DNA from: Roseibacillus ishigakijimensis
Lineage (GTDB): Bacteria; Verrucomicrobiota; Verrucomicrobiia; Verrucomicrobiales; Akkermansiaceae
Direction: 5' to 3'
Length of the DNA: 57,710 nt
NCBI RefSeq assembly: GCF_016595415.1
Contig: NZ_JAENIO010000026.1
Coordinates: 1-57,710 of the forward strand
Numbering within the stretch: position 1 is the stretch's first letter; each line of letters opens with the position of its first letter. The notes under the pieces are model-generated. The model saw only the letters and a program-made list of their open reading frames with translations. It searched no databases and was not told where the DNA came from. This document shows positions 29,723 to 47,255 of this stretch, in pieces. The position numbers were made by a program, and so were the translations under genes.

Positions 29723-29862
29723 GGCGGGAAGCCTTGAAGCAAAGGCTTGGAGAACGAAATCAAAAAAAAGGAAAATTGTCCTCAGGCTGGTGAGTTTTGC
29801 CAGTGGATAATTGACGCTTGGTCCCTTGGGGCGAGCTGTTAAAAGCGCTCGCCAAGGATATT

Positions 29863-31719
29863 ATGTGTGGAATCGTCGGATACAGCGGAACTCAGCCTGC
29901 CGCGCCCATTTTGCTCAACGGCCTCAAGCGTCTCGAATACCGGGGATATGACTCGGCAGGCTTGGCCTTGGTCTCTCCGGAAGGAATCCGGGTCGAGAAG
30001 TCACAGGGGAAAGTAGCCAACCTTGTCGAGTTGCTGGGCGACTATGCCAAGGAGCCTTCCTTGGGAGAGGCGACCTCGGGAATCGCCCACACCCGCTGGG
30101 CGACCCACGGGCCGCCCACGACCGTGAATGCCCATCCCCACGCCGCCCGGCCTGCTGGCGAAGAGGGGAATCGCGTGGCCCTCGTTCACAATGGCATCAT
30201 CGAGAATTACAAGGCGCTCAAGGCTCGCCTGGAGGCCGCAGGGCGGACTTTTCTTTCAGAAACCGACACCGAGGTGCTCGCACACTTGGTCGATTCCTAC
30301 TACGAGGGCAATCTGGTGGAAGCGGTCACCAGGGCACTCAAGGAGGTCGAAGGCACCTTCGGGGTGGCCAGCGTGGCGGTGGATGAGCCCGGGGTGATGG
30401 TGGTGGCCCGGCGGGGAAGCCCCATTGTGATTGGCTTGGGCGAGGATGAAACCCTGGTGGCCAGCGATGCCGCTGCCATCCTGCGCTACACCCGCCAGGT
30501 GATCTACCTCGACGACAATGATGTCGCCCGCATCGAGGGGCCCAAAGTGGAGATTCGGAGTCTCGATGCCCTGCCGGTCACCCGGGAAGCGACTCAAATC
30601 GATTGGTCGGATGATGCGGCGGAGAAAGGGGGCTATGCCCATTACATGCTCAAGGAGATCTTCGAGCAGCCGGAATCCATTTGGAATACCATTCGCGGGC
30701 GCATGGATGCTGATCGGGGCAATGCCGTGCTTTCCGGGCTCAATCTCAATCCCCGTGATCTGGCGGATTTGCAGCGGGTTCTTCTCGTCGGTTGTGGCAC
30801 GAGCCTGAATGCGGGTCTGGTGGGGGAGTATGCCATTGAAGAGTTCGCCGGGCTCTTGGCCGAGGTCGAGCAAGCGGCCGAATTCCGCTACCGCAATCCC
30901 ATCGTCGGGGCCAAGGATTTGGTGTTGGCCATTTCTCAAAGCGGAGAAACCGCCGATACCCTGGCAGCGGTGCGCGAAGCGGTGGACAAGGGGGCGTTGG
31001 TTGCAGGCCTGGTCAATGTGGTGGGCTCGACCATCGCTCGCGAAACGGGGCGGGGCATCTATCTCCACGCCGGGCCGGAGATTTCCGTGGCGTCCACCAA
31101 GGCTTTCACCTCCCAGGTCAGTTGCCTCCTCATGATCGCCCTCAAGTTCGCCCGGGCCGCCCGCATGTCGCGCGAACGCGGGGTGCAATTCGTGCGTGAG
31201 ATTGAGGCTATTCCCGAACAGGTCCGTCAGGTGCTGGCCCTCAATGACGAGATTGCCGAGATTGCCGCCAACTACACCTCTGCGGAGAACGCCTTTTTCA
31301 TCGGCCGGGGCTTCATGTATCCGGTGGCGCTTGAGGGAGCTCTCAAGTTGAAGGAAGTCAGCTACATCCATGCGGAGGCCTTTCATGCTGCCGAGCTCAA
31401 GCATGGCTCCATTGCCCTCCTGACGGAGGAGGTCCCGGTGGTCGCGCTGGCTCCGGTGGGTCCGGGCAAAGACAAGACTCTTTCCAACGTCGCGGAGTGC
31501 CGGGCCCGGGGCTCGAAGGTGTTGCTGGTGGCTACCGAAGGGGATGAGGAGGTCGATGATTACGGCGATCACATCATCCGCATTCCCGCCGCTCCGCTGC
31601 ACACTGCGGTCATTCCTGCCGCCGTGGCTCTCCAGCTTTTTGCCTACCACGTGGCCCGCTTGCGGGATTGTGCCATTGATCAGCCCCGCAACCTCGCCAA
31701 GAGCGTGACCGTGGAGTAG
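29863..31719 (+). CDS. glmS: Glutamine-fructose-6-phosphate aminotransferase
   Basis: A 618-residue enzyme that makes glucosamine-6-phosphate from fructose-6-phosphate and glutamine, the first step to UDP-GlcNAc for peptidoglycan and LPS. The N-terminal glutaminase domain begins MCGIVGYSG with the catalytic Cys2 exposed after methionine removal; RYDSAG-like and HTRWATHG segments follow. Two SIS sugar-isomerase domains follow (GCGTSLNAGLVGEY and ENAFFIGRGF), and the C-terminus is QPRNLAKSVTVE. The start is supported by AAGGA six bases upstream and the strict family N-terminus. The DprE1-like gene begins 10 bp later, so glmS leads this operon. Confidence 0.97.
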   Translation: MCGIVGYSGTQPAAPILLNGLKRLEYRGYDSAGLALVSPEGIRVEKSQGKVANLVELLGDYAKEPSLGEATSGIAHTRWATHGPPTTVNAHPHAARPAGEEGNRVALVHNGIIENYKALKARLEAAGRTFLSETDTEVLAHLVDSYYEGNLVEAVTRALKEVEGTFGVASVAVDEPGVMVVARRGSPIVIGLGEDETLVASDAAAILRYTRQVIYLDDNDVARIEGPKVEIRSLDALPVTREATQIDWSDDAAEKGGYAHYMLKEIFEQPESIWNTIRGRMDADRGNAVLSGLNLNPRDLADLQRVLLVGCGTSLNAGLVGEYAIEEFAGLLAEVEQAAEFRYRNPIVGAKDLVLAISQSGETADTLAAVREAVDKGALVAGLVNVVGSTIARETGRGIYLHAGPEISVASTKAFTSQVSCLLMIALKFARAARMSRERGVQFVREIEAIPEQVRQVLALNDEIAEIAANYTSAENAFFIGRGFMYPVALEGALKLKEVSYIHAEAFHAAELKHGSIALLTEEVPVVALAPVGPGKDKTLSNVAECRARGSKVLLVATEGDEEVDDYGDHIIRIPAAPLHTAVIPAAVALQLFAYHVARLRDCAIDQPRNLAKSVTVE

Positions 31720-31729
31720 CCTGCCGACG

Positions 31730-32998
31730 ATGAAAGGAATGGAATCCTGGGGGCGCTATCCCAAGCTGGCTACGGAGAAGGCCTATTGCTGGTGGTTGCA
31801 GGACGTGAGCTTGCAAGAAAACCAGCTGCCGGTTGGCTTGGGGCGTAGCTATGGAGACTCGGGACTGCCCCGGGAAGGGGGAACTGCTCTCGTGATGGAG
31901 CCTTGCCAGCGCTTGGTTAGCTTTGACGAGGCGACCGGAGTCCTGCGGGCCGAGGCCGGGATTTCCTTGGGGAGTCTGCTGCAATGGGCGGTGCCCCGGG
32001 GTTGGTTTTTGCCTGTGGTGCCGGGCACCCGCCACGTCACCTTGGGCGGGGCCGTTGCCAATGATATTCATGGGAAGAATCATCATCGCGACGGCACCTT
32101 TGGCTGTTGGGTGGAGAGCTTTTCTCTCTCTCGCCGCGAGGGCGGCTGGCAAGAAGTGGCTCCCGGGGAAGATTTATTTGAGGCCACCATCGGGGGGCTG
32201 GGCCTCACCGGCGTGATGGGGGAAATCTCCCTGCGCCTGCAAAAAATTCCGGCAGGGGGAGTCATCGAGCAGGAAACGTCTCGCTTCAGCGACTTGATCG
32301 AAGCCTGCGATCAGCTCGAAAAGCTGGATGAGGAATCTCCCATGACGGTGGCTTGGCTGGACCTGGGGAGCCGCGACCGGGTTTCGGGAGTGGCGATGGG
32401 GGGGCGCTTTGTGGAAAGTGAGAAAGAGGCCCGGCTGCGTTCTCCCAAGCTTTCGGTGCCCGTGACAGCACCTGAGTTTTTGCTGAATCCCCTCAGTATC
32501 TCAGCCTTCAATCGCACTTACGACTGGACTCGTCGCAATGGGACCACCCGGGTGGGCTATCCTTCCTATTTTTTCCCCCTCGATGGGGTGGGCCATTGGA
32601 ACCGCCTCTACGGCAAGCGTGGCTTTCTGCAATACCAATTTGTGGTCAAGGAGCGAGAGGCTCTCATTGCGGTGGTGGACGCGGTCTTGCAGTCCCGCCA
32701 ACGTCCTTTCCTGAGTGTTTTGAAGAAGTTCGGCGATCGGCAGTCGCCGGGTTGGCTATCATTCCCGCAGCAGGGCTGGACCCTGGCGATGGACTTTCCC
32801 ATGCGGGGAGAGGAGACCCTGCAGCTGCTGGCGAGGATGGACGAGATCGTGCGGGTGGCGGGGGGACGGCTCTATGCGGCCAAGGATGCCCGCATGGAGG
32901 GGGACTTTTTCCGCGAGAGTTATCCGGACTGGCAGCGGCTTGAAAAATGGCGGGATCCGGCCATCATGTCCGCGTTTTGGCAAAGAGTCAGCTCATGA
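31730..32998 (+). CDS. dprE1: DprE1-like FAD-dependent oxidase
   Basis: A 422-residue flavoprotein resembling decaprenylphosphoryl-ribose 2'-oxidase, which with DprE2 epimerises lipid-linked ribose to arabinose. Visible features: WGRYPK at the N-terminus, the FAD loop GLGRSYGDSG at residues 36-45, GGAVANDIHGKNHH at 106-119, then SFPQQGWTLAMDFP and the catalytic-type lysine K385 in AAKDAR. At the site equivalent to the drug-reactive cysteine of mycobacterial DprE1 there is alanine (TLAMDFP). It is about 40 residues shorter than the mycobacterial enzyme. It is 10 bp from glmS and overlaps the next gene by 4 bp. The real substrate may be another polyprenyl sugar. Confidence 0.85.
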   Translation: MKGMESWGRYPKLATEKAYCWWLQDVSLQENQLPVGLGRSYGDSGLPREGGTALVMEPCQRLVSFDEATGVLRAEAGISLGSLLQWAVPRGWFLPVVPGTRHVTLGGAVANDIHGKNHHRDGTFGCWVESFSLSRREGGWQEVAPGEDLFEATIGGLGLTGVMGEISLRLQKIPAGGVIEQETSRFSDLIEACDQLEKLDEESPMTVAWLDLGSRDRVSGVAMGGRFVESEKEARLRSPKLSVPVTAPEFLLNPLSISAFNRTYDWTRRNGTTRVGYPSYFFPLDGVGHWNRLYGKRGFLQYQFVVKEREALIAVVDAVLQSRQRPFLSVLKKFGDRQSPGWLSFPQQGWTLAMDFPMRGEETLQLLARMDEIVRVAGGRLYAAKDARMEGDFFRESYPDWQRLEKWRDPAIMSAFWQRVSS

Positions 32999-33723
32999 AT
33001 ACCACCGTTATTATCGGCGCCAGCTCGGCATTGGGCGAGGCTTTGGTCCGCTTGTTGGCGGAGCAAGGTGAAGCTCTCTTTCTCACGGGGCGCGACGAGG
33101 CCAAACTGGCCAAGATTGCGGAGGACGCCCGCCTCCGTGGCGCGGCGCGGGTGCGCACCCGGGTGCTGGATCTTCAGAGCTGGGATGGCTCGGTGGATTT
33201 TTTGCGGGAGGTCGGCCAGCTTGCGGCCGTGGTTTTGACCCCGGGGATTCTGAGCGATGAAGAAGGGGATTTTGCCACTTGGCAGAGGGAGGTGTTGGTC
33301 AATTTCACCGCAGTCGCCTACCTCGCACGGGAGTCTTGCTCGCTTCTTGGGGAGCAGCGCAAGGGCGGCTGCCTGCAGGTGGTCGGGTCCGTGGCCGGAG
33401 ACCGGGGCCGCCAGTCCAACGGATTCTATGGCGCGCAAAAAGCCGCGCTGGCCACCTATCTGGAAGCTCTCGCTCATCGCGCCGCTTTGGAACATGCCGA
33501 GGTGCGGGTCCAGTTGATCAAGCCCGGGATGGTGCGCAGCGCGATGACGGCCCACTTGCCCGACTCTCCCCTCTTTTCGCCACCAGAAGCGGTGGCCGCA
33601 GTGATGGCCAAGGCCCTGCGTAAGCGGAAACGGGGAGTGTTCTACGCGCCTTCCTGGTGGCGGGCGGTGATGACGATCATTCGACTCGTGCCCGGAGTGA
33701 TTTTTAAGAAAACCAAACTGTGA
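32995..33723 (+). CDS. dprE2: DprE2-like short-chain reductase
   Basis: A 242-residue short-chain dehydrogenase. The nucleotide site is IIGASSALGEAL at the N-terminus, and the catalytic pair is Y-x3-K in FYGAQKAAL with a serine shortly before (VVGSVAGD). The C-terminus is hydrophobic and basic (WWRAVMTIIRLVPGVIFKK), as in membrane-associated members that act on lipid-linked sugars. Position after the DprE1-like gene, with an ATGA overlap, suggests it reduces the keto intermediate to complete a 2-epimerisation. On its own the sequence only proves the SDR family. Confidence 0.82.
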   Translation: MNTTVIIGASSALGEALVRLLAEQGEALFLTGRDEAKLAKIAEDARLRGAARVRTRVLDLQSWDGSVDFLREVGQLAAVVLTPGILSDEEGDFATWQREVLVNFTAVAYLARESCSLLGEQRKGGCLQVVGSVAGDRGRQSNGFYGAQKAALATYLEALAHRAALEHAEVRVQLIKPGMVRSAMTAHLPDSPLFSPPEAVAAVMAKALRKRKRGVFYAPSWWRAVMTIIRLVPGVIFKKTKL

Positions 33724-35309
33724 TGCGGTTTTCTCCTGTTCTGGGCTGGGTCTTGGCTTACCTCGTTCTGGCCTTTCTTTTTCTCAGTCCGGAGGTGGGT
33801 AACCACAGTGAGGCGGAGGACGCTTTTACTTATGCGCGGGAGGTGGAAGTGGAGGGCTATCGCGAGATTCTCCATCCCCATCACCGGCTCTATCACCCCT
33901 TGATAAAGGCCGTTTACGAGCTCTCCGGAGCGGAGCGTTCTTACCCGGTGTTGGTGGCGGTCAGTCAGGGGGCGGCCCTCTTGGCCTTGTTTTTTTTCTC
34001 CCTCCTCTTGCGAGAATTGGGAGTGAAGGGCGAGGGGAGGCGCTTTGTCTTTGTGGCGGGCTTGGCCTTTAGTTACGGCTTCTGGCGTTACACCCACGAG
34101 GTGGAGGCCTACACCGTGGGCAGTGCGGTGGCGATGATGATCTTGTGGCTGTTCTTCCGTTGCCGGGGGGCTTGGCGGGGAGTGGTGATGGCGGTGGGCC
34201 TGGTCCTCGCCCTCAATGTCCACCGGGCCCTCGGGCCGCCTTTGCTGCTGGCGGGGGGAACTTTGCTTGTGGGTCAGAAGGAGTGGCGGAGTCTGGCGCT
34301 CTTTGTGATCTCGGCGGGGGGGCTCTATCTCGCGGCCGAGTGGACGGCCGGGCAAGTGGGGGAGCCCTCGAGGCAAGGCCCGGAATTTTCTGGTTTTTTC
34401 TATGAAGAACAAACCGTGGAGCGGAGCCAGGACCGGGCGGGGACCAAGTTGAGCCCTGCCTCTTTGCCCAAGGCTGCTATCGGGCTGGGCTCCAGTGTGG
34501 TGGCCACCAACCTGCTGATGGGAGTCGATCCGGTTTTCGAGTTTTTGCAGAAGCGACTCTTTCCCTATCGCTTTTTGCAGGAGGAGCGCCTCCTGGCGCA
34601 GGGGCAGCCGATCTGGTTTCAGGCTCTCTGGGCTCTATTGCTGGTGGCCACTTTGGCGGGAATCGCTTTCTTCCTCTGGCAGGTGGTCCGGGATTGGCAG
34701 CAGTGGCGGACTTGGGCTCCGGCGTCCTGGGCCCTCCTGGTCGCGACGGGAGGCTACGCGGGAATGATTGTGATTTTTGAACCCGGGAATCCGGAGATGT
34801 GGCTGTTGGGGGTGCCTTTCTTTTGGCTGGTTGCGGCTCTGTTGATGCGCGCGGTTTCTACTCGCAGTCTCGCGGTTTGGACTGTTGTTTTTGCAGGCGG
34901 CAACTTTTTGGGCGGAATGGCGCTCCTGGCCGAGGAGGAGAAGGATTATCACTTCGTGACGTCTCGTTTCATTCGGGCCGAGGGGCGCCCCCAGGACTGG
35001 TATCTTCTTGGCTATCGGGGAGCCGTGCAGGCTCGCTTCGTGCGCTATCGGGTGGGAGCCTTGCAGGTGGTCCCTCTCCCGCGCGAAAGTGAGAAGTTTG
35101 CCTCATTTTACCACGAGTTGACCGGAGAATTATCCCGGGGGCGCCGGGTTTTCGTTCACACCACGGTGTTGGAGCGGCCGGCTTCCTTCGGGGTTTCCCT
35201 GGCGGATTTCGGGCTTTCCTACCGGCCAGGGCCCACGCCCGGGGGAGGAGGAGAAATTGTTCTCGCTGCTCCCGGGGATGAACCTCACTCGGTGAACTCG
35301 GCCCGGTAG
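33723..35309 (+). CDS. Polytopic GT-C-type glycosyltransferase (putative)
   Basis: A 528-residue integral membrane protein with about ten hydrophobic helices spread along its length. The first loop after helix one has acidic residues (NHSEAEDAFTYAREVE), followed by HPHHRLYHPLIKAVYEL. This is the arrangement of GT-C enzymes, which transfer sugars from polyprenyl-phosphate donors outside the membrane and carry the catalytic acid in that loop. ATG at 33723 overlaps the previous stop as TGATG; a GTG one codon earlier is also possible. Placement after the DprE1/DprE2-like pair suggests it uses their lipid-linked sugar. Its last 25 bp overlap the convergent FG-GAP gene. Confidence 0.7.
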   Translation: MRFSPVLGWVLAYLVLAFLFLSPEVGNHSEAEDAFTYAREVEVEGYREILHPHHRLYHPLIKAVYELSGAERSYPVLVAVSQGAALLALFFFSLLLRELGVKGEGRRFVFVAGLAFSYGFWRYTHEVEAYTVGSAVAMMILWLFFRCRGAWRGVVMAVGLVLALNVHRALGPPLLLAGGTLLVGQKEWRSLALFVISAGGLYLAAEWTAGQVGEPSRQGPEFSGFFYEEQTVERSQDRAGTKLSPASLPKAAIGLGSSVVATNLLMGVDPVFEFLQKRLFPYRFLQEERLLAQGQPIWFQALWALLLVATLAGIAFFLWQVVRDWQQWRTWAPASWALLVATGGYAGMIVIFEPGNPEMWLLGVPFFWLVAALLMRAVSTRSLAVWTVVFAGGNFLGGMALLAEEEKDYHFVTSRFIRAEGRPQDWYLLGYRGAVQARFVRYRVGALQVVPLPRESEKFASFYHELTGELSRGRRVFVHTTVLERPASFGVSLADFGLSYRPGPTPGGGGEIVLAAPGDEPHSVNSAR

Positions 35310-38300
35310 AAACTCTTTCCACTGGGAAGGGTGACTTCGATTTCGACCTCTCCGGAGGGGGTGGTGGATACCTCTCCTGCGGACACGGGGAGGGGGCTGA
35401 AGGTGGTGAGATCGGGGCTCTCCCACAGGGCAAGGCGCAGGGTGGCGCGGTTGCTGGCCGGGTCGACGGTCACGAGGCTGAAGTCACCGGCCAGCCCTCC
35501 CAGATCTTCTGCGGACACCAGACCCCGGGAGCGATCTAACTCCTGCAAATCGGCCACCAGGCTCGGCTGGGCCTCTTCCCAGTCGAAGCCGAGGCTGCGG
35601 GCGAGGTATTCCGGCCAGTCGGCCAGGCCATCGCCATCGGCATCGGCGGTGGGGGAATAGGCCAGACCGGTGAGGGTCACTGCGGTGGTGGGGTGGGCGG
35701 AGTCATTGGAGCTGATGATGAGGGTCACTTCGCGGGGACCGCTCGTTTCTCCCACCGGCGACATATGCAGCTGGAAGGAGAGGGATTGGCCGCTGGCAAG
35801 GTCCGGGCTGGCCGCCAGACTGGGGGCGGTGAGGGCGAATTGACTCGTCTGCGGGCCTCCCAGGGTGATGGTGTAAAGGTCGAGGGCTTCCGTGCCGGTA
35901 TTGGTGATGTGGAAGGTGAGGTCGCGGATCTCGCCCATCGGGGTGCCGGGCAGGAGAGGATAGCTCGCGCCCGGGCTGAGGCCCAGCCCGCTCGCATCTT
36001 GTAAGGACAGCTGGCGAAGCCCATCGGTTAGAACCTCGAAAAAATAGACTGCACCCGCCCAGTATTCGGGCTCGAATTCAGAGGCCTCTCCCAGCAAGAC
36101 GCGGTTGCCCGCGTGGGCCATTTGGAGAGAAAAGTTTAAAGACTGGATCGTTCCGCTGAAGAGGGTGCCCTCGTTTTGCCAGTTGTCATTGGGATTGAGC
36201 AGGTGGAGTCGGGAGGTCTGGTCGCTATTGAAGGAGCCGATCAGGGCCGATTGATGGGACAGGGAGACGGCAGAGCCAAAGAAGGCACGATTCTCCCGGG
36301 GGGCGGCCACGATTTTCCGTTCTTCGGTCCAGCTCTCGCCGTCATGGCGGAAGAGATAGGCCGCTCCTTCCGAGAGGCTGGAGCTCGTGGGGTCGCTCTC
36401 TTCACGAGGTGCTCCCACGAGGAGTTGGTTGCCTTGAAGGGAGAGGGCCGCACCGAATCCATCGAATCGAGTGCCATCGCTGGCGGTGAGGACAGTTTGC
36501 TGGGTCCAAGTTCCGCTCGCGCGGGAAAAAATGAGGACCCCTCCTTTGTTTTCCGAGCCTCCTTGAGGTGACCCGATGGCGGCGATTTCGCCTTCCAGCG
36601 CAATGCTGTCCGCATAGGTGAAGTCCTCATAGCTGGCGCTCGCGGCATCGGGCTGCAAGGTGGCTTCCAGATGCCATTGCTGCCCTTGACGGGCAAAGAC
36701 CAAAGCGCGATTGTCCGAGGTGGTGGTGAGGAAGCGATTCCCCGAGAGAGCGAGCTGTCTCCCGAAATTCGCCCCTCCTTCCCATTCTTGTGCGGACAGA
36801 CTCTCCGCTGCCTGCCATTGACCGTCTTCGCGGAGAAAGGGAATGATGCTCGGTTCAAACAGATTTCTACTCGTTAGCACCGCGGTCCCGTTCTCCAAAG
36901 CGACCGAGAAGCCGAAGAAAATCGGCTCCGCAGCTGCAGGCAGCCGCAACGTTCCGGATTCTACCCAGCTTCCGTCTGTGGCTTGGTGGAACAGATAGCC
37001 TATTCCGCGCGCAAAGTTGTCGCCTGGCGCGCCGATGAGGGCGTCTTGGCCGGAGAGTGCCACCGAGAGGCCGAGTTGAGTCGGGTAATTGAACACTGCG
37101 GAAACGTTGGGTGTGTTCAGAAACCCGTCGGGGAAAGAAAACTGGATGACTAGGCCTTGTCCTTCCCCCTCCAAGGGTGCTCCCGAAAGCAGATGGTCGG
37201 GCTCAAGAAGGACGGATCTTCCTAGTCCAGATTCTGGGCGGATTTCGAGTCCGAGGGGAATGGGGAGAGACCAGGCACCAGCTGTGCGTTGGGAGAACCA
37301 GACTGTCCCGTAGCGGTCACCGATGGCCAGGCGATCGCCCAACAGGCTCAAGGATTCGCCAAACTGAAGGTCAACTTCTTCGGGGAGATCGGGTGCGAGC
37401 TTGCTGGTCTGATTCCAGCTGGCACCGCTTTTGTTGTAGAGGTAGACCGCTCCGTCGGGCGTAGGGCTGTCGTTGCTTCGGTTGGGCGCCCCCACCGCAA
37501 TGGTGGTGCCGGAGAGGGCGACCGAAAAGCCGAAGCGGGCGCTGGGCTCCGGATCGGAGGGGACGAGTTTGGCTTGTTGGTTCCAGGAGGAGCCGCTGCG
37601 GGTGAAGACGTAGGCCGAGCCATTGGCAGAAGAGTCATCCCCTACCACGAGGGTGGAGCTCTCCAAGGCGAGGGAGGTTCCGAAATCACCCGAAGTGCTA
37701 TCGCTCGGGACGATTCGCTGGCTCATGGTCCAAGTCGTGCCACTGCGGGTGAAGTGGTAGACCCCCGCGACTGCTTCGCCAGGAGCTCCCACAAAGGCCG
37801 AGTTGCCACTGAGAGCGACTGCGTTTCCAAAGAATCCGTCGATTTCGGAGTTGGGGGAGGTGAGGACGGCCTGGCGCTGCCAATTCTCTCCATTGCGGAC
37901 GAAGACATAGGCGCGCCCGGTGGCATCAGGCCGGATGGCGCTATCTTCGTAAGCACCTACCAGAATGGTGTCGCCGGAAATGGCCACGGAATGTCCGAAA
38001 GCGCTGAAGGGGACCAAATCGTCAGAGCTCAGTTCGGCCTGCCATTCCCAGTAGCCGGCCTCATCGCGGACGAAGACGAAGGCTGCACCGCGGTTGTCAT
38101 TTCGCCACTCGGCTCCCACGACCAGAGTGTCATTCGAGAGGGCCAGCGCGTTGCCAAAGCGCTCATTCGCGGCGGTGCGTGTAGTTTGGCCGGTCACCGT
38201 TCCCCGGGAATTGGTGATGAGGGGGTCGACGGTGACGGGGTAACTGGCTCCGGCGTCGTGGAAGGCCAGGTGGATGTGGCCCGCGCTGGTGGCCGTCATG

Positions 38301-39055
38301 CGGGCAGGGAGCTCCCGGCCACGGGAATCGAAGACGAGCAATTTGGAGTAGGTGAAGGCGGGAGTGGACTTGTTTTGCAGCAGAAGCTGGTTCCCGTCTC
38401 CCTCGCTGGCGTGCAGGCCCTCGAGCGCGATTTCGAGAGTGACCTCGTCCCCGGCGCTTTGCGGACGGTGGGATAAAGTGAAGCCTTGTTCCAGGCCTTC
38501 GGGACGGTTGCGGTACCACTCCACCAAGCCGTCGGGGTGGTGGAACTCCACTTGTTCCTGGTCTCCTTCCCTCAGGATGGGATCCGGTCGGCTGCCCAGG
38601 TGTTTACCCGCCAGTTTTTGCAGGCGCAGGGAGCCTTGGCGAGTCGCGCCGGGCCGCAGAGGATGGGCGAGGTCGAGAGCCACTTCTCCGGGGCCAAAGC
38701 GGGCCCCCAGCTGGTTGCCGGGGTTCCAGGTCTCGTAGCGAAAGCCTTCCGCTTCGTCAGGGACTTCACGGATGCGCAGGCGGGCTTTCTGCAAGACTTC
38801 ATTGAGCGACTGATCGGCCAGCAGCGCGGAGTCCGGGCTGCTGGGAGAGCTCGGGGCGAACAGGTCGGTTGGTGCTGCCTCCGGGGTGGCTTGGGGTGAC
38901 TTTTGAGATCGGAGCAGAGGGGGAACCTCTTCGGAGTGTGTCAGGTCAGCTTCCGCGGGCTTAGGAGCAGGAGGCTGGAAGGGGCGGCTCGGGATGCTGA
39001 GGAAGAGTGCCACGCCCAAGGTGGCAATGAGCAGGAAGAGGCGGGGGGTTTTCAT
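35285..39055 (-). CDS. FG-GAP double beta-propeller surface protein
   Basis: A 1256-residue exported protein. An N-terminal hydrophobic anchor or signal (about 5-22) leads to a Pro/Ala-rich region and a conserved beta domain. About fourteen FG-GAP repeats follow, each near FGxSVALSGxxxxVGAP and a YVFxRxG strand, enough for two seven-bladed propellers. After these comes an immunoglobulin-like ASH/choice-of-anchor domain (DLTFHITNTGTEALDLYT), a DADGDGLADWPEYLAR segment typical of verrucomicrobial secreted proteins, and a short C-terminal beta domain. Integrin-like propellers of this kind bind other proteins or glycans. No sorting signal is visible. Confidence 0.85.
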   Translation of the reverse strand: MKTPRLFLLIATLGVALFLSIPSRPFQPPAPKPAEADLTHSEEVPPLLRSQKSPQATPEAAPTDLFAPSSPSSPDSALLADQSLNEVLQKARLRIREVPDEAEGFRYETWNPGNQLGARFGPGEVALDLAHPLRPGATRQGSLRLQKLAGKHLGSRPDPILREGDQEQVEFHHPDGLVEWYRNRPEGLEQGFTLSHRPQSAGDEVTLEIALEGLHASEGDGNQLLLQNKSTPAFTYSKLLVFDSRGRELPARMTATSAGHIHLAFHDAGASYPVTVDPLITNSRGTVTGQTTRTAANERFGNALALSNDTLVVGAEWRNDNRGAAFVFVRDEAGYWEWQAELSSDDLVPFSAFGHSVAISGDTILVGAYEDSAIRPDATGRAYVFVRNGENWQRQAVLTSPNSEIDGFFGNAVALSGNSAFVGAPGEAVAGVYHFTRSGTTWTMSQRIVPSDSTSGDFGTSLALESSTLVVGDDSSANGSAYVFTRSGSSWNQQAKLVPSDPEPSARFGFSVALSGTTIAVGAPNRSNDSPTPDGAVYLYNKSGASWNQTSKLAPDLPEEVDLQFGESLSLLGDRLAIGDRYGTVWFSQRTAGAWSLPIPLGLEIRPESGLGRSVLLEPDHLLSGAPLEGEGQGLVIQFSFPDGFLNTPNVSAVFNYPTQLGLSVALSGQDALIGAPGDNFARGIGYLFHQATDGSWVESGTLRLPAAAEPIFFGFSVALENGTAVLTSRNLFEPSIIPFLREDGQWQAAESLSAQEWEGGANFGRQLALSGNRFLTTTSDNRALVFARQGQQWHLEATLQPDAASASYEDFTYADSIALEGEIAAIGSPQGGSENKGGVLIFSRASGTWTQQTVLTASDGTRFDGFGAALSLQGNQLLVGAPREESDPTSSSLSEGAAYLFRHDGESWTEERKIVAAPRENRAFFGSAVSLSHQSALIGSFNSDQTSRLHLLNPNDNWQNEGTLFSGTIQSLNFSLQMAHAGNRVLLGEASEFEPEYWAGAVYFFEVLTDGLRQLSLQDASGLGLSPGASYPLLPGTPMGEIRDLTFHITNTGTEALDLYTITLGGPQTSQFALTAPSLAASPDLASGQSLSFQLHMSPVGETSGPREVTLIISSNDSAHPTTAVTLTGLAYSPTADADGDGLADWPEYLARSLGFDWEEAQPSLVADLQELDRSRGLVSAEDLGGLAGDFSLVTVDPASNRATLRLALWESPDLTTFSPLPVSAGEVSTTPSGEVEIEVTLPSGKSFYRAEFTE

Positions 39056-39239: not shown

Positions 39240-40127
39240 TCACGCCGCGCTGGGTTCGACGGCGGTTTCTCCTTCGGGAATGACGGTGACGCCGATGGAG
39301 AGCTTTTGGCGGCCGCCTCCGAAGACAGTGCCGCGCACCGGGGAGATATCGAGGTAGTCGCGTCCCCGGGCAATGGGGATGTGGTTGGTGGTGGGGATGA
39401 CGTTGTTGGTGGCATCAAACTCTGTCCAGCCCAGCTGGGGCACGTAGACCGAGACCCAGGCGTGGGAGGCGTCGGCCCCGATGAGGCGGGGTTTGCCGGG
39501 AGGGGGATTGGTGCGCAGGTAGCCGGAGACGTAGCAGGCGCTCAGTCCGAGGGAACGCAGGCAGGAGATCTGGAGGTGGGCGAAGTCCTGGCAGACTCCT
39601 GCTTTCTTCTCCAGGACGTCATGCACGGGGGTGGAGACGGTGGTGGCGCTGTTGTCGAACTGGAAATCATCGTAGATGCGGCGGGTGAGGTCGCGGGCGG
39701 CCGTCAGGATGGGCGTGCCGGGCTGGAAGGAAGGGAGGGCATAGTCGAGGAGGGCGGGGGAAGTGCGCGAGATGCCGGAGGAGAAGGTGAATTCCGCCGC
39801 AGAGAGATCCTGCGGGAGGGTGGAGTGGGCGAGGGTGTCGCGCACTTTTTCCCAAGGGGGCGAGAGGTCGAGCTGGGGAGTGGGGACGCTTTCCGGCAGG
39901 GAGATGGTGCTGTGGGCATCGATGGTCAGCTCCTGATGCGGGGTGGTGATGGAGAAGTAGGTGGTCGCGTTGCCAAAGTAATCGAGATAGTTGTTAAGGG
40001 TATCCGGGGTGGGCGAGATGAGCAGGCGGGTCTGCCCGAGGTGGGAGCGCAGGCGGGCGAGGTGGTGCGAGTAGGAGACCTTGGCTTCGTAGCGGTAGGT
40101 GGTGCGGTGATGGATGGTGTAGGTCAT
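39240..40127 (-). CDS. Transglutaminase-like protein
   Basis: A 295-residue protein with the bacterial transglutaminase N-terminal region (TYTIHHRTTYRYEAKVSYSH) and a transglutaminase-like core. The catalytic triad is visible: C179 in AGVCQDFAHL, H222 in ASHAWVSVYV and D238 in TEFDATNN. Members of this group are thought to act as cysteine peptidases or amide-bond transferases on unknown peptides and are encoded with circularly permuted ATP-grasp and alpha-E proteins, as in this cluster. It lies 39 bp after the fused ATP-grasp-alpha-E gene on the same strand. The start is preceded by a C-rich tract. Confidence 0.92.
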   Translation of the reverse strand: MTYTIHHRTTYRYEAKVSYSHHLARLRSHLGQTRLLISPTPDTLNNYLDYFGNATTYFSITTPHQELTIDAHSTISLPESVPTPQLDLSPPWEKVRDTLAHSTLPQDLSAAEFTFSSGISRTSPALLDYALPSFQPGTPILTAARDLTRRIYDDFQFDNSATTVSTPVHDVLEKKAGVCQDFAHLQISCLRSLGLSACYVSGYLRTNPPPGKPRLIGADASHAWVSVYVPQLGWTEFDATNNVIPTTNHIPIARGRDYLDISPVRGTVFGGGRQKLSIGVTVIPEGETAVEPSAA

Positions 40128-40166
40128 GGCGGAGGGGGGAAAAAGGTGGGAAGGCTAGCCGGGGCT

Positions 40167-42731
40167 TCAGGTGTTTTGGGGCTCGGCGTGGGTGAAGAAT
40201 TGCCAGCCGAGTTGCTCGGTGAAGCGGGGCAGCTTGCGGCGGACGGTCTGGAGGAACTCGGTGAGGGTGGCCAGCTGTTCGGCCTCGTCCTCGTCGTTGC
40301 GGGCATCGAGGAGCTCGGTCTCCAGAAAGTGCAGCGCGCGCAGGACGTAGCGATGCAGCTGGGAGGGCAGGTTGTCGGCCGGATCGGTCATCAGGTGGCG
40401 CAGATCGCGGTCGATCTCGTGGAGTTGGAAGATGAGGGAGCGGGGGTTGGTGGGGTCGTGGAGAATGACATCCAGTACGGGCAGAATCTGGGGCGCGCCC
40501 TGATAGCGGAAGCGATAGGTGAGGGTGACGTCGTTGATGGAAAGGAGGGTTTCCAATACGCTGGCGGTGCGCTCCTCGGGCGGGAGGGCGAGGATTTCGT
40601 TGACGAGGTTGAGGAGGGCTCCCGCGCGTTCGATTTTGCGGCCCAGATTGAGGAAAATCCATCCCATGTTGCGGGTGAGGTTCTCGCGGCAGGTGCCATT
40701 GAAGGCGGAGTGATAGGCGAGCGCCTTTTGCAAGATGGGTCGCAGGCTGCGGAGGTTCTCGGCGGAGGCGTTTTTGCCCAGTTCGTGGAGTTGCTGGATG
40801 ATGACCCAGGTTTCCCCGGAGAGGCGGTCGCTGGAGAGGGAGGCCAGATTGCGCAGGCGAATGAGGTTCTGCGGGATGGAGTCGAGTTCCCGGTTGTTGT
40901 CGGTGGAGAAGTAGGCTGCCAGAAGGAGTTCGCGGATGCTGGTGCGGGGGTCGGGGCTGGTGAGCGGATCGACCTTGCTCGAGAGATAGCCCAGCTTGGC
41001 GAGGGACTTCAACAGGGGGCGGAGGGCTCGCAGGGTGGTCTCGTCGTGCTCGACGGAGAGGCGGTTGGCGATTTCCAGAATGAGGCGGGTGACGAATTCG
41101 GCCCGTTCGGAATAGCGGCCGATCCAGTAGAGGTTGTCAGCTGCGCGCGAGGAGAGGGTGCCCGAGGCCCGGCGGATGGGTTCGCGGTCGGGCAGGTTGG
41201 TGCGCACCTGATTGGTCTCGGGATTGTCGGAGAGAATCCACAGGTCCTTGGAGCCCGAGTCGTGGGAGGGGGAGAGCCCGGGCAAACCCGTGCTGGCATG
41301 GGCACAGCGGACGAGACCTCCCGGCATGATTTGGAAGTCGTTGCCATCGTGGAAGAGGAAGAGCCGCAGCGCCATGGGGCGGGGCTCGAGTTCTTTGCCA
41401 TTCCAAGCGGGGGAGGTGGAAAAGTCCATTTCCCGTTGCAGGGAGAAGGAGGAGGGATCGCGCTCGATGCGTTCCAAGAGGCCGGCCCGCTTCTCCGGGG
41501 TGAGGTTCTTGGTGGGGATCGGGGGCAGTCGCAGGCCGAAGGAATTTTTGACGAAGCCGAGGCCTTGGTCGAGGAATTGGGGGAGGGCTTCTTGGAAGGT
41601 CTCCCTTTGGCCTCCCCAGATGGTTTCGATGGAGGGGAGGAGGAGGTCCTGTCCCAGCAATTTTTTGGCAATGGCGGGCAGGTAGGGAAGAAAGGCAGGG
41701 GACTCGGCGATCCCGGTGCCAGGCGGGTTGAGCACGGTCACGGTGCCGGCCCGAACGGCCTGCATCAGCCCGGCGACGCCCTTGTTGGAGGCGGCAGGAT
41801 TCTCCAGGGGATCGATGAGGGTCTCGTGGACGCGGCGATAGATGACGTGGATGCGTTTGAGCCGGGAAACGGTTTTGAGGAACACGCGGTCGTCGCGGAC
41901 GGTGAGCTCTTCGCCCACCGCGAGGGGGATACCCAGGTAGCGTGCGAGATAGGCGTCTTCAAAATAGGTGGGGTCGGAGGGGCCGGGGGAGAGAAGGACC
42001 ACTCCAGGCTCGTCGACGGCATGGGGGACCCGGGCGAAGAGGGTGGTTTGCAGGTTTTGAAAATATCCCGCCAAGCGCACGAGGTGGAGGCGGTTGCTTG
42101 TCTCCGGAAAGACATTGCTCAAGATGATGCGGTTCTCCAGGGCAAAGCCGGTGCCATTGGGAGCCTCGGTCCGATCGGCCAGCACCGTCCAAGTGCCATC
42201 TGAGCACCGGGCGAGGTCGACGGCGTAGAAGTTCAGCAGGCTTTGGTCGGGCTCGGGGAGGGGCAGGGAGCGGTTGAACCCCGGTTGGGCAAAGAGGAGG
42301 GAGGGCGGCAGAAGGCCCTCCGCGATGAGGCTGCGGGAGCCATAGCAATCCTTGAGAATGGCATCCCAGAGGCGGGCCCGCTGAATGGCTGCGGTGACCA
42401 GTGGCTCCCATTCCTTCTCATTGAAAATCATCGGGATGGGGTCCAGATTCCACGGGCGGGGGGAGGTGGCCGATTTGTCGAGATTGTGGGAGAGACCGTT
42501 GTCGCGCAGCATTTCGTCCCCCCGTTTCCAGGCATTGGCCAGGCCGTTGCTGCCCATTTCGTTGAGGCGGGCTCCAAAGGCTTGCACCGAGGGGCGGAGC
42601 TGACCGTCCCTCCCGACGAATTCATCCAAGCGATCCGGCAGGGGACGGTAAGCGGAGAGAAGAGTTTCCCCGGGCCCCTGGGTTGAGCTTTGTGACTGAC
42701 TTTGTTGGGATTGCGTTTGGTTCTGGGTCAT
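40167..42731 (-). CDS. Circularly permuted ATP-grasp / alpha-E fusion
   Basis: An 854-residue fusion. After a Gln/Ser-rich disordered tail (1-20), residues about 25-505 are a circularly permuted ATP-grasp ligase, recognisable from DGTWTVLADRTEAPNG, YRRVHETLIDPL and NPPGTGIAESPAFL. Residues about 527-840 are an alpha-E domain, starting LSSRAADNLYWIGRYSERAE. ATP-grasp enzymes of this kind are predicted to form amide bonds; the alpha-E domain is an all-helical partner of unknown role. In the plus-strand set of the same cluster the two domains are separate genes. The ATG at 42731 gives the shortest form with the full domain; the longer frame overlaps the glutaminase gene and is unsupported. Confidence 0.92.
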   Translation of the reverse strand: MTQNQTQSQQSQSQSSTQGPGETLLSAYRPLPDRLDEFVGRDGQLRPSVQAFGARLNEMGSNGLANAWKRGDEMLRDNGLSHNLDKSATSPRPWNLDPIPMIFNEKEWEPLVTAAIQRARLWDAILKDCYGSRSLIAEGLLPPSLLFAQPGFNRSLPLPEPDQSLLNFYAVDLARCSDGTWTVLADRTEAPNGTGFALENRIILSNVFPETSNRLHLVRLAGYFQNLQTTLFARVPHAVDEPGVVLLSPGPSDPTYFEDAYLARYLGIPLAVGEELTVRDDRVFLKTVSRLKRIHVIYRRVHETLIDPLENPAASNKGVAGLMQAVRAGTVTVLNPPGTGIAESPAFLPYLPAIAKKLLGQDLLLPSIETIWGGQRETFQEALPQFLDQGLGFVKNSFGLRLPPIPTKNLTPEKRAGLLERIERDPSSFSLQREMDFSTSPAWNGKELEPRPMALRLFLFHDGNDFQIMPGGLVRCAHASTGLPGLSPSHDSGSKDLWILSDNPETNQVRTNLPDREPIRRASGTLSSRAADNLYWIGRYSERAEFVTRLILEIANRLSVEHDETTLRALRPLLKSLAKLGYLSSKVDPLTSPDPRTSIRELLLAAYFSTDNNRELDSIPQNLIRLRNLASLSSDRLSGETWVIIQQLHELGKNASAENLRSLRPILQKALAYHSAFNGTCRENLTRNMGWIFLNLGRKIERAGALLNLVNEILALPPEERTASVLETLLSINDVTLTYRFRYQGAPQILPVLDVILHDPTNPRSLIFQLHEIDRDLRHLMTDPADNLPSQLHRYVLRALHFLETELLDARNDEDEAEQLATLTEFLQTVRRKLPRFTEQLGWQFFTHAEPQNT

Positions 42732-42882
42732 GGCACAGGCCGCGGGCGGCGATTGGGGGAGGGATGTAGGGAAAGAGTAGACAAGAAGTCTCTCCGGGTC
42801 GAGGAGAGGATTGTGCGTGAAGGCGGTTTCCTTGCTTTCAGGCCAAGAAAGACCCGATTTTCGGCCAGGGCGGGGAGTCTGG

Positions 42883-43812
42883 CTAGAAAATGGAGCCCGT
42901 GGCGTCGGAAAGGAGCTCAAGGGCGCGGAAGCCACGGTGGGAATTGCCCCGCGTGTTGAGGGGCGGGCTCCAGACGGCGACCGAGAAGTGGCCGGGATGG
43001 ACGGCTACAATGCCGCCTCCCACCCCGCTTTTGGCAGGGAGGCCCACCCGGAAGGCGAATTCCCCAGCTTCGTCGTAGAGCCCGCAGGTCATCATGGTGG
43101 CATTGATGCGCTTGGCCCGGCGAGGGGTCAGAATGGGGGTGCCATCGACCAGAGACTGGCCTCCATTGGCGAGCACGCCGCAGGCCCGGGCAAGGTCGCG
43201 GCAGCTCATCGCCAGGGAGCAGGCCTGGAAGTAGAAGGCGAGGACGTCTTCTACCTCGTGGCGGAGGTGACCGTAGCCCTTGATGAGATGAGCGATCGCA
43301 CGGTTGTGGTGGCCGGTCCGCTGTTCTGACCAAGCTACTTCCTCATCGTAGTGCAAGGCTGGATTTCCGCTGATTTCCCGCACAAAGGCCAAAAAGTCGT
43401 CGGCAGGCTGCGCCAGTAAATCGAGCAGAACATCACAAACCACGATCGCTCCGGCATTGATGAAGGGGTTGCGGGGATAGCCTTTTTCATACTCCAACTG
43501 CACGAGCGAGTTGAAGGGATCGCCCGAGGGCTCGACGCCGACCCGTTCGCGGAGGCGGCGCCCCAGGGGCTGGATGGCCCGCATGAGGAGAAAGACCTTG
43601 GAGATGCTCTGGATGGAAAAGGGCTCGTCTCCCTCGCCGCTCTGGCATTCCCCTCCATCCAGGGTATGGAGAGCCATTCCGAAGTGGTCGGGTGCTACTT
43701 TGGCCAGCTCCGGGATGTAGTCCGCCACCCGGCCCCCGTGCTCCAGCCCAGCCGTTTCCCGCACGATGGAGTCCAGGAGCGGCTGATAGTCGATGGAAGG
43801 AGGGGAAGACAT
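42883..43812 (-). CDS. glsA: Glutaminase
   Basis: A 309-residue serine-dependent glutaminase that hydrolyses glutamine to glutamate and ammonia. The beta-lactamase-like S-x2-K site is SIQSISKVFLL, with the substrate-binding NPFINAGAIVVCD, TGHHNRAIAHL and SGVGGGIVAV segments in order. Length is the usual 300-310. It starts 11 bp after the transglutaminase-DUF2126 gene and is followed after 151 bp by the ATP-grasp fusion, so it is embedded in the amidoligase cluster on the same strand. That suggests it supplies glutamate or ammonia to the pathway; it may equally be a housekeeping gene caught between them. Confidence 0.95.
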   Translation of the reverse strand: MSSPPSIDYQPLLDSIVRETAGLEHGGRVADYIPELAKVAPDHFGMALHTLDGGECQSGEGDEPFSIQSISKVFLLMRAIQPLGRRLRERVGVEPSGDPFNSLVQLEYEKGYPRNPFINAGAIVVCDVLLDLLAQPADDFLAFVREISGNPALHYDEEVAWSEQRTGHHNRAIAHLIKGYGHLRHEVEDVLAFYFQACSLAMSCRDLARACGVLANGGQSLVDGTPILTPRRAKRINATMMTCGLYDEAGEFAFRVGLPAKSGVGGGIVAVHPGHFSVAVWSPPLNTRGNSHRGFRALELLSDATGSIF

Positions 43813-43823
43813 GGGGGCGCCGG

Positions 43824-46800
43824 TTAGAAGTAGCGCTGGAGGTCCAGGGTGAGGGGGAAGTCAGGATTGATGTCGGGCTGGGGCGGATCGATGGTGCCGG
43901 GGGTTTTGCCCATTTCAAAAAAGCGCGAACGGCGTCGGCTCTCTGCCACAAAGGCATTGAGCGGGAAGTCGTCGTAAGCCCGTCCCCCGGGGTGAACGAC
44001 GTGGTATTGGCAGGCCGCCAGGGAGCGCTGGTTCCAAGTGTCGACGAGGTCGAAGGTGAGGGGGGAATTGATGGGCTTGGTGGGGTGGAGGGCGGAGAAG
44101 GGTTTCCAAGCCCGGAAGCGCACTCCGGCCACGTATTCGCCCGCCCGTCCGGTGGGGTGCAGGGGCACCGGGATGCCATTGGCAGTCAGGAGATGGCGCT
44201 TCTCGGTGAGGTTGCTGAGCTTGACCTGCACGCGTTCCACCGAGGAGTCGACATAGCGGGCGGTGCCAAAGGAGGCGGTCTCCTCGCCCAGCACGTTCCA
44301 AGGCTCGATGGCGGTGCGCACCTCGAGGTGGATGTTGCGATGGTCGAGCTCGCCAATGAAGGGCATGCGGAATTCGAGGTGGGGCTTGAACCAGGCCGGG
44401 TCGAAGGCGAGGCCGTGTCCTTGCAGGTCCTCCACCACGTCGTTGAGGTCGTCTTCCAGGAAGTGGGGGAGCATCCAGCGGTCGTGGAGCCGGGTGTTCC
44501 AGCGCTCCAGCTTGGCGGTGTAGGGCTGGTCCCAGAAGCGCGAGAGAAGCCCGCGCACGAGGAGTTGCTGGGCCAGCGACATATCCGGGTGGGGGGGCAT
44601 CTCGAAGCCGCGCATCTCCACCAAGCCCAATCGCCCGGTGGGGGAATCCGGGGAGAAGAGCTTGTCGATGCAGAGCTCGGCGCGGTGGGTGTTGCCGGTC
44701 ATGTCGACCAGATGGTTGCGCAAGACCCGGTCGACCAGCCATTGGCTGTTGGTCAGCACGGTGTTGGTCTCGGGCAGGGCTCCGAAGGCGGTCTCCAGCT
44801 CGTAGAGTTGCTCGGGGCGGGCCTCATCCAGGCGGGGGGCCTGGGAGGTGGGGCCGACAAACATGCCCGAGAAGAGGTAGGAGAGGGAGGGATGGTTGTT
44901 GAAGTAAGTGATCAGCGAGCGCAGGAGGTCGGGTCGGCGCAGGAAGGGGGAGTCGAGAGGTTTCTCGCCCCCGATGACGATGTGATTGCCCCCGCCGGTG
45001 CCGGAGTGGCGCCCGTCCTGGAGATATTTTTCGGTGCCCAGTCCGCAGAAACGGGCCTCTTCGTAGAGGATCTTGGTCTTGTCCACGATCTCCTGCCAGC
45101 TTTGCGAGGGATGGATATTGACCTCGATGACGCCGGGGTCGGGGGTGACCGAGAAGGAATTGAGCCGGGGGTCGGAGGGGGGCTTGTAGCCTTCCAGTCG
45201 CACCGGAGTGCCCAGCTCTTTGGCGGTTTCCTCCACCGCAGCCACCAGCTCCAGATAAGAGCCGGCATCGGTGAGCGGGGGGAAGAAGATATTCAGGCGG
45301 CCTTCGCGGGGTTCGACGACCAGGCCGGTGCGCAGTTGTCCTTTGGCCGATTGGTTCATCTCCGGGGGAGTGAGGACGGCATTGCGCTGGCGTTCCTGCA
45401 GCTCGCGGATGAGCTCGTCGCGGCGACGTTTGCGCTCCTCTGCTTCTCCGGCGAGCCTTTCCTCGCGCTCTTCGGGACTCTCCCGCTCGTCAAAGGGATT
45501 TTGCATGAGGGGGCTGCCCGCGCCACGGAGGGCGGGGGGAACGAGGCGTTCTTCGGGAAAGGGTGAGCGCGGGATGGCGGGGTCGTAGGGCTCCAGGTAG
45601 GGTTGGTCGGTGATTTTCGCCCAGGGGAGTCCGTCGATGGGGAGGCGGTAGCCCATGGGGTGATTGCCGGGGGAGAGGAACATTTCCTCTGTGCCAAGGA
45701 ACCAGGGGCCAGTGAGCCATTCCTCGGGGTAGAGGCCCCGGGCAATGGGCAGGAGGTGGCCGACCTCCGAGCCCAGCCCTTTGTCGAAGACTTCCGCAAT
45801 TTTCCGCCGGGCCAGTTCATCCTTCAAGCGCGGGTCCTTGACCGTCACGTTCATGGGCAAGCGGCGCTCTTTCCACAGATAATAGTAGAGATCCTCGAAG
45901 CCGGGGCGGATGTAGTCGGTAGGAAGGCCGAGATTTTTGGCCAGGAGATGGGTGAAGGCCTCCGAATCCTTGATGGTGTGGCCGTAGTTTTCTTCCTGGC
46001 GGGCAAAGAGGCCGGGATCGGTCCAGATGGCCTGGCCATCGCGCCGCCAGTAGGAGGAGTAGGCCCAGCGCGGAAGTTGTTCCCCGGGATACCACTTGCC
46101 CTGTCCGTGGAAAAGGAAGCCCCCGGGCGAGAATTTTTTGTAAAGGCGGCGCAGCAATTGGTCGGCATAGCGCTCCTTGGTCTCGCCCAATGCCTCGGTA
46201 TTCCACTCCGCGGCCTCCATCTCGGTGGCCGAGACAAAAGTGGGCTCGCCCCCCATGGTCAAGCGGATGTCCTGCCGCTCAATCTGTTTGTCGAGCTCGT
46301 GCCCGAGGGCCTCGATGGCGGCCGACTGCTCCTCGGTGTAGGGCAGGGTGGTGCGCGGGGTTTCCTTGATGCGCTTGATTTCCATCGCGAAGTCGAAGGC
46401 GCACTCCACCTCCTCGGTGGTCACGATGGAGCCGGAAAGAGGGGCGGCATTGATGTAATCGGCCGAGCCGCAGAGGGGAATTTGCCCTTCGCCCGCGAGG
46501 AGGCCCGAGGTCGGGTCGAGCCCGACCCAGCCCGCTCCCGGGAGGTAGATTTCCGTCCAGGCATGGAGGTCGGTGAAGTCCTCCTCCGGTCCGCTCGGGC
46601 CATCGTCGATGGGCTTTTGGTCCGCCGTGAGCTGGATGATGTAGCCGGAACAAAAGCGGGCCGCAACGCCGAGATGGCGCATGACGTGGACCAGCAGCCA
46701 AGCCGAATCCCGGCAGGAGCCCTTCCTTTTTTGCAAGGTCTCTTCTGGAGTCTGCACCCCTGGTTCCAGGCGGATGCCGTAGTCCACCGCCTGGTTCACG

Positions 46801-47255
46801 GCTTGGTTCACCGCGATCATGAAGTCGTTGGTCAGCATCCCTTTTTCGATGGGGAGCTGGCTCATGAATTTATCGAAGAGGGGAGAGCTCTTGCCGGTGG
46901 CGAGGTAGGGCTTGAGGTCCTCCTTGAGTTCGCGGGGATAGCCGATGGGGTAGCTCTCCGCGCAGTCCTCGAGGAAAAAGTCGAAGGGATTGATGGGCGA
47001 GAGGTCGGCGACGAGGTCCACTTCCAGCTTTAGCTCGGTCACGGGCTCGGGAAAAACGAGCCGGGCCAGGTAGTTGCCCTGCGGGTCTTGCTGCCAATTG
47101 ATGAAGTGCTTCTCCGGGGTCACCTTCAGCGAATAGGCCGGAATCGGGGTGCGGGAATGGGCGGCGGGACGGAGTCGAACCACTTGTGGCCCGAGGGTGA
47201 CTGGCTTCTTGTATTTGTAGGAAGTGACGTGATGAAGCGAGCAGTGGATTGACAT
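43824..47255 (-). CDS. Transglutaminase-DUF2126 large protein
   Basis: A 1143-residue protein. The N-terminal part is a bacterial transglutaminase unit with triad C181 (RKGSCRDSAWLL), H231 (TDLHAWTEIYLP) and D247 (VGLDPTSG). The remaining 800 residues are DUF2126, with MGGEPTFVS, GQGKWYPGEQLPRW, GGGNHIVIGGE and RNHLVDMTGNTHRAELCIDK as recognisable blocks. DUF2126 has carboxylate-amine-ligase-like features (His and Glu clusters near GGGNHIV) and always accompanies transglutaminases and ATP-grasp proteins. Role: probably the main ligase or modifying enzyme of the peptide pathway. It is the first gene of the minus-strand set, divergent from the plus-strand set across 110 bp. Confidence 0.93.
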   Translation of the reverse strand: MSIHCSLHHVTSYKYKKPVTLGPQVVRLRPAAHSRTPIPAYSLKVTPEKHFINWQQDPQGNYLARLVFPEPVTELKLEVDLVADLSPINPFDFFLEDCAESYPIGYPRELKEDLKPYLATGKSSPLFDKFMSQLPIEKGMLTNDFMIAVNQAVNQAVDYGIRLEPGVQTPEETLQKRKGSCRDSAWLLVHVMRHLGVAARFCSGYIIQLTADQKPIDDGPSGPEEDFTDLHAWTEIYLPGAGWVGLDPTSGLLAGEGQIPLCGSADYINAAPLSGSIVTTEEVECAFDFAMEIKRIKETPRTTLPYTEEQSAAIEALGHELDKQIERQDIRLTMGGEPTFVSATEMEAAEWNTEALGETKERYADQLLRRLYKKFSPGGFLFHGQGKWYPGEQLPRWAYSSYWRRDGQAIWTDPGLFARQEENYGHTIKDSEAFTHLLAKNLGLPTDYIRPGFEDLYYYLWKERRLPMNVTVKDPRLKDELARRKIAEVFDKGLGSEVGHLLPIARGLYPEEWLTGPWFLGTEEMFLSPGNHPMGYRLPIDGLPWAKITDQPYLEPYDPAIPRSPFPEERLVPPALRGAGSPLMQNPFDERESPEEREERLAGEAEERKRRRDELIRELQERQRNAVLTPPEMNQSAKGQLRTGLVVEPREGRLNIFFPPLTDAGSYLELVAAVEETAKELGTPVRLEGYKPPSDPRLNSFSVTPDPGVIEVNIHPSQSWQEIVDKTKILYEEARFCGLGTEKYLQDGRHSGTGGGNHIVIGGEKPLDSPFLRRPDLLRSLITYFNNHPSLSYLFSGMFVGPTSQAPRLDEARPEQLYELETAFGALPETNTVLTNSQWLVDRVLRNHLVDMTGNTHRAELCIDKLFSPDSPTGRLGLVEMRGFEMPPHPDMSLAQQLLVRGLLSRFWDQPYTAKLERWNTRLHDRWMLPHFLEDDLNDVVEDLQGHGLAFDPAWFKPHLEFRMPFIGELDHRNIHLEVRTAIEPWNVLGEETASFGTARYVDSSVERVQVKLSNLTEKRHLLTANGIPVPLHPTGRAGEYVAGVRFRAWKPFSALHPTKPINSPLTFDLVDTWNQRSLAACQYHVVHPGGRAYDDFPLNAFVAESRRRSRFFEMGKTPGTIDPPQPDINPDFPLTLDLQRYF

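Follow-up and report, generated by a model that had tools for sequence, protein, structure and literature searches.

The lipid-linked D-arabinose pathway is best known from the tuberculosis bacteria and is also widespread elsewhere. In mycobacteria, this decaprenylphosphoryl-arabinose (DPA) pathway consists of Rv3806c, Rv3807c, DprE1, DprE2 and arabinosyltransferases. In Pseudomonas, the TfpW system, in which pilin is arabinosylated, relies on a GT-C enzyme in addition to a phosphoribosyltransferase and yields arabinofuranose (Araf). Here, we describe a cassette of three genes encoding relatives of DprE1 and DprE2 and a polytopic protein in Roseibacillus ishigakijimensis, a member of the Verrucomicrobiota, on contig NZ_JAENIO010000026.1 (positions 1 to 57,710, the whole stretch analyzed and hereafter the window). 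This cassette is probably the second half of a split polyprenyl-phosphate-D-arabinofuranose pathway acting on the glycan of an exosortase locus or on PEP-CTERM proteins.

The presence of sequence relatives of Rv3806c, DprE1 and DprE2 likens the genome to the mycobacterial DPA pathway, from which it differs in that the curated model cut-offs are missed and the cysteine targeted by benzothiazinones is replaced with alanine. In contrast to mycobacteria, we know of no arabinan in this organism. The TfpW system, which we compare by description and not by sequence, is Gram-negative like this one, but its acceptor is pilin. Three-component pentofuranose systems have been described in Gram-negatives (Citrobacter youngae O1/O2), the Araf versions of which carry DprE1/E2 homologues (PMC11127046). 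These have in common with the present genome a UbiA-type polyprenyl phosphoribose synthase, a putative GT-C-like transferase and the DprE1/E2 homologues for Araf. Unlike in those systems, the genes here occupy two separate places, the UbiA is not fused to a HAD phosphatase, there is no neighboring flippase gene, and the setting is an exosortase/exopolysaccharide locus. The main text of PMC11127046 mentions neither exosortase nor Verrucomicrobia, and our literature search found no paper joining exosortase with arabinofuranose, or Verrucomicrobi with DprE1. The general pathway is already published in that source, so the arrangement described here is a variant of it.

The DprE1-DprE2 cassette behind glmS

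The initial annotation described an oxidase, a short-chain reductase (SDR) and a polytopic protein that overlap by 1–4 bases behind glmS, and these open reading frames (ORFs) were confirmed in the window as follows.

31730-32998 (+): DprE1-like flavin adenine dinucleotide (FAD) oxidase, predicted to act on lipid-linked ribose; 422 aa; NF053785, PF01565, Mycobacterium tuberculosis DprE1
32995-33723 (+): DprE2-like SDR; 242 aa from the ATG of ATGA; PF00106, GASSALG, YGAQK (YxxxK)
33720-35309 (+): polytopic protein, putative GT-C arabinofuranosyltransferase; 529 aa from GTG (GTGA); eight hydropathy segments, motifs
29860-31719 (+): glmS, a housekeeping neighbor itself outside the pathway; TIGR01135, 742.8 bits (cut-off 418)
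35285-39055 (-): convergent FG-GAP-repeat protein, overlapping the 3' end of the cassette by 25 nt

All three cassette ORFs are intact, and the oxidase starts 10 nt downstream of the glmS end, a gap that makes joint transcription plausible. If the polytopic protein instead started with the ATG at 33723, it would overlap the SDR by a single base.

The assigned identities of the first two products are borne out by their closest solved relatives, which are M. tuberculosis DprE1 for the oxidase (E 8e-60, residues 34-403) and M. tuberculosis DprE2 for the SDR (E 1.2e-19, with the runner-up at 5.7e-12). The SDR also has the PF00106 domain and the YGAQK motif, which, together with DprE2 as the nearest solved chain, we took to mark a functional relative of DprE2. 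We aligned the oxidase in a set of 109 relatives, comprising 80 named loci from many phyla, 26 loci from the phylum, locus L014, the related genome G002 and the window. Residues H114, K116, K332 and K385 are invariant in all 109, and in the PDB alignment they correspond to H132, K134, K367 and K418 of M. tuberculosis DprE1, which we take to be functional residues. The 80 named loci were retrieved with two patterns, one of which includes H114 and K116, so these two residues carry little weight, and only K332 and K385 count as free evidence.

In the same alignment, residue 353 lies at the position of M. tuberculosis Cys387, the benzothiazinone target. It is alanine in the window, and among the 109 proteins it is alanine in 94, threonine in 12 and cysteine in three; enzymes with alanine at this position should escape covalent benzothiazinones. 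DprE1 relatives were also found in 69 plasmid records, every one with less than 60% identity, and these gave no lead.

The oxidase and SDR could instead epimerize or oxidize some other lipid-linked sugar, be it a different pentofuranose or another kind of polyprenyl sugar, and the product would then not be arabinose. The best NCBIfam model for the SDR is indeed the generic PRK07102 (197.5 bits, cut-off 267) and not DprE2, and xylofuranose systems are also described, albeit ones in which a single, unrelated epimerase acts (PMC11127046). We nonetheless consider another sugar improbable, given that the oxidase and the SDR each have a subunit of the mycobacterial 2-epimerase as their closest solved relative, and that the known Araf systems in that source employ DprE1/E2 homologues.

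A probable UbiA partner at the exosortase locus

The cassette lacks a phosphoribosyltransferase, which the initial annotation predicted to be encoded elsewhere in the genome, with a search for a UbiA-type gene as one half of its refuting test. We ran this search and found one Rv3806c-type UbiA on another contig, so this half of the test did not refute the proposal. PF01040 has five matches in the genome (four over the cut-off). Just one of them, and no other gene, is recognized by the phosphoribosyltransferase model NF008978. Its match in the PDB is the solved Rv3806c (E 7e-15). Its position, with G000 denoting the genome of the window, is:

L007:9336-10232 = G000:C181:99515-100411: Rv3806c-type UbiA (locus L007 is G000:C181:90180-110179)

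The gene order at this locus is exosortase (PF09721), EpsI-like (PF11984), UbiA, O-antigen ligase (PF04932), polyprenyl glycosylphosphotransferase (PTR, TIGR03025), prs, rplY, pth and ssb. By our reading, glycosyltransferase, sulfotransferase-like, acyltransferase-like and Wzx-like genes also surround UbiA, and the prs product would be the donor phosphoribosyl pyrophosphate (PRPP), although the placement of prs may reflect housekeeping order alone. Of the Mg2+/PRPP motif (N-D-x-x-D-x-x-x-D plus R..E), N62, D63, D70, R187 and E190 are kept in the UbiA. In a quick tree, the UbiAs of exosortase loci group as a deep clade of six rows with a support of 100.

Among 78 related genomes, DprE1 was found in six, the GT-C protein in three, and matches to the UbiA model in 26. 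The ND-type UbiA occurs in 12 genomes, including five of the six with DprE1; the exception is G002, where the contig ends at that point. Another type with NE..D accounts for 15 of the 27 other aligned UbiA proteins. In a larger sample of 387 genomes of the phylum (thresholds of E 1e-30 for DprE1 and E 1e-25 for UbiA with NF008977), 27 have DprE1 and 146 have UbiA, which is present in all 27 genomes with DprE1 as compared with 119 of the 360 others. UbiA adjoins DprE1 in just seven of the 26 phylum loci with flanking sequence, indicating that split systems are common in the phylum. In the 80 named loci, UbiA is directly upstream in 55 of the 74 that have flanking sequence, or in 59 if any position in the locus is allowed. 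The corresponding figures for a DprE2 relative directly downstream are 63 of 79, or 66 at any position.

Several other arrangements were observed in these surveys. The 15 UbiAs with NE..D represent a second type, common in the same order, whose motif reads NEILDAPFD (loci L030-L044; G028, G030-type). Nine rhizobial loci (L083, L088, L095, L098, L100, L122, L129, L135 and L148) have UbiA-DprE1, but no DprE2 related to that of the window was detected within these loci. In genus g7, a GtrA-family gene that is likely a flippase (NF037976, 136 bits) lies between DprE1 and DprE2 (L048 7455-7856; L049 7948-8376). Locus L140, from the Pseudomonadales metagenome-assembled genome NORP220, has, some 3.8 kb upstream of position 5233, an exosortase relative (30% identity) that precedes HAD-UbiA, DprE1 and DprE2; this is a possible independent link between exosortase and arabinose genes, and the sole case in the 80 loci.

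In the proposed pathway, the Rv3806c-type UbiA at the exosortase/exopolysaccharide locus would carry out the first half, and a phosphatase would remove the 5-phosphate. The lipid-linked ribose would then be oxidized at C2 by the DprE1-like enzyme, and the DprE2-like enzyme would reduce the keto sugar to lipid-linked Araf, activities that homology and the catalytic residues suggest. After a flippase has turned the lipid-linked Araf over, the polytopic protein would pass Araf, outside the inner membrane, to the exosortase-locus glycan or a PEP-CTERM protein. We infer arabinose as the sugar, the identity of the acceptor and the GT-C activity.

A number of observations weigh against this pathway. 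The oxidase matches the DprE1 model NF053785 with 303.6 bits (E 2.9e-90), which is under the curated cut-off of 500 and makes it a relative and not a mycobacterial equivalog. Likewise, the SDR scores 117.1 bits with the DprE2 model NF053786 (cut-off 250), and the UbiA scores 139.2 bits with NF008977 and 136.7 bits with NF008978 (cut-offs 234 and 207). The third motif residue of the UbiA, corresponding to the Mg2+ ligand Asp77 of Rv3806c, is asparagine in all eight members of the clade, while aspartate is found there in 59 of 59 and 30 of 30 others in two alignments. Asp77 and Asn73 jointly bind Mg2+ in Rv3806c, where mutating Asp77 lowered the activity by 82% (PMC10994848). The D251A variant of Citrobacter ORF15 showed no activity in vitro and weak activity in vivo (PMC11127046), and D251 would be the equivalent of Asp77, as judged from the motif. 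Asparagine might nevertheless coordinate Mg2+, or this UbiA may use another donor. No HAD domain is fused to the UbiA, and a HAD phosphatase query, run with no positive control and leaving PAP2-type enzymes unsearched, returned nothing in four genomes. The sole flippase candidate in the genome, from a search that did not cover SMR/MATE, is one GtrA-family gene in an unrelated place far from the locus. The third cassette protein has no match in Pfam, NCBIfam or the PDB, and its single-sequence fold (predicted local distance difference test, pLDDT, 43.8) was unusable, so no fold search was built on it. Lastly, the co-occurrence of DprE1 and UbiA in the phylum (Fisher 7e-13) spans eight families and is uncorrected for kinship.

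Position of the cassette within the genus

We compared gene orders and counts among the four genus members (G000-G003) using tblastn. The order in G001 is exosortase-EpsI-UbiA-DprE1-DprE2-GTC-ligase-PTR-prs, and in G002 it is contig end-DprE1-DprE2-GTC-ligase-PTR-prs. In G000 the order is exosortase-EpsI-UbiA-ligase-PTR-prs with the cassette place closed, and no cassette-gene remnants were found at E 0.01 in the stretches searched (L007, L068 and L008). All four members have glmS with a divergent PfkB gene, and glmS is retained in G001, G002 and G003 with 84-89% identity, but other genes follow it there. The DprE1s of G000, G001 and G002 form one clade (SH-aLRT 100), within which G001 and G002 pair to the exclusion of G000 (98), and PTR identities give the same order (78 and 77 versus 83%). 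DprE1 from another genus of the family (G031, G039 and G382) falls in a different clade. The GC content at third codon positions (GC3) is 0.71-0.74 in the block and 0.74 in glmS, compared with 0.63-0.69 in the exosortase locus of G000; the blocks of G001 and G002 have the lower values of their own locus (0.44-0.56). With its composition like that of glmS and unlike that of the exosortase locus, the block has probably not moved recently, and a chimeric contig is unlikely.

These positions and trees point to the block as a displaced part of the exosortase/exopolysaccharide locus. By the direction we infer, the cassette would have stood in the exosortase locus of an ancestor within the genus and then moved behind glmS in this lineage. 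Alternatively, the cassette could have been gained separately behind glmS, in which case the exosortase-locus UbiA would serve an older system and not be its partner, or the cassette would be partnerless and idle. The GC3 agreement with glmS fits such a gain, as does the occurrence of this UbiA type, with its difference at a Mg2+ ligand, in six genomes without DprE1. We find it unlikely, since G001 has the same UbiA type directly before DprE1 in its exosortase locus, the three DprE1s form one clade, no second phosphoribosyltransferase-type gene was found in the genome, and the cassette ORFs are intact. It is very improbable that the position behind glmS is an artefact of the draft assembly. 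Although the assembly is in 192 contigs, the junctions are clean on both sides, the exosortase stretch has no cassette remnants, and the block matches glmS and not the exosortase locus in composition.

Polytopic proteins, acceptors and significance

The third cassette protein has eight segments by a plain hydropathy scan, and the motifs EAEDA..YA (behind the first helix) and H..HRLYHP are invariant among the polytopic proteins of G000, G001 and G002. Topology, position and these motifs suggest a putative GT-C glycosyltransferase; a sub-threshold match to the TMEM260-like PF11028 (E 1.1) in one of the three members is a lead only. Searched against 2797 ORFs in 137 loci (L069-L205), the profile of this group matched only G000 itself and G001.

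The six genomes that have the same UbiA type without DprE1 are G003 (same genus), G018, G028, G037, G045 (genus g16) and G052 (another family). In all six, the neighbor of UbiA is a different polytopic protein (about 600 aa), which lies behind UbiA in G003, G028 and G052 and before it in G018, G037 and G045; in G045, the contig end cuts it. Its profile, built from five of its six positive genomes so that only G045 is independent, matches 6/6 of these genomes versus 0/3 of G000, G001 and G002, with no match in G031, G039 or G049 either. PDB profile searches with both polytopic groups gave apparent chance matches only. Comparison of the two profiles gave a probability of 0.1 percent, which, with three and five sequences, does not establish non-homology. 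The second polytopic set may add ribofuranose, and the cassette set arabinofuranose. More tentatively, the UbiA clade with asparagine at the Mg2+ ligand might be a distinct lipid-pentose synthase, with a product that serves two interchangeable sets: one polytopic transferase alone (ribofuranose), or DprE1-DprE2 and an unrelated transferase (arabinofuranose). Swaps of these sets might then change which pentose is carried by exosortase-linked glycans or PEP-CTERM proteins, with the arabinose set working here in trans from behind glmS.

The acceptors of the proposed pathway are likely exosortase substrates or exopolysaccharide, as judged by location only. PEP-CTERM-like matches to TIGR02595 (E up to 1) number 65, 94, 26 and 50 in G000 to G003, with G001 partly scored; among the controls, 7 of 14 genomes also match, two over the cut-off. 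Two such signals lie in the window:

4374-4445 (-): PEP-CTERM-like sorting signal (TIGR02595)
53478-53549 (+): PEP-CTERM-like sorting signal (TIGR02595)

Elsewhere in the window, a run of minus-strand ORFs (39240-47255) resembles a transglutaminase/circularly permuted ATP-grasp/DUF2126-type cluster, from a reading of the ORFs without a model search.

If correct, the proposal would connect the surface glycans associated with exosortase (PEP-CTERM) to an arabinose pathway of the tuberculosis type. Related species would offer a natural comparison of ribose and arabinose at one locus, and the UbiA family found here would serve as a test of whether asparagine can replace the Mg2+-binding aspartate.

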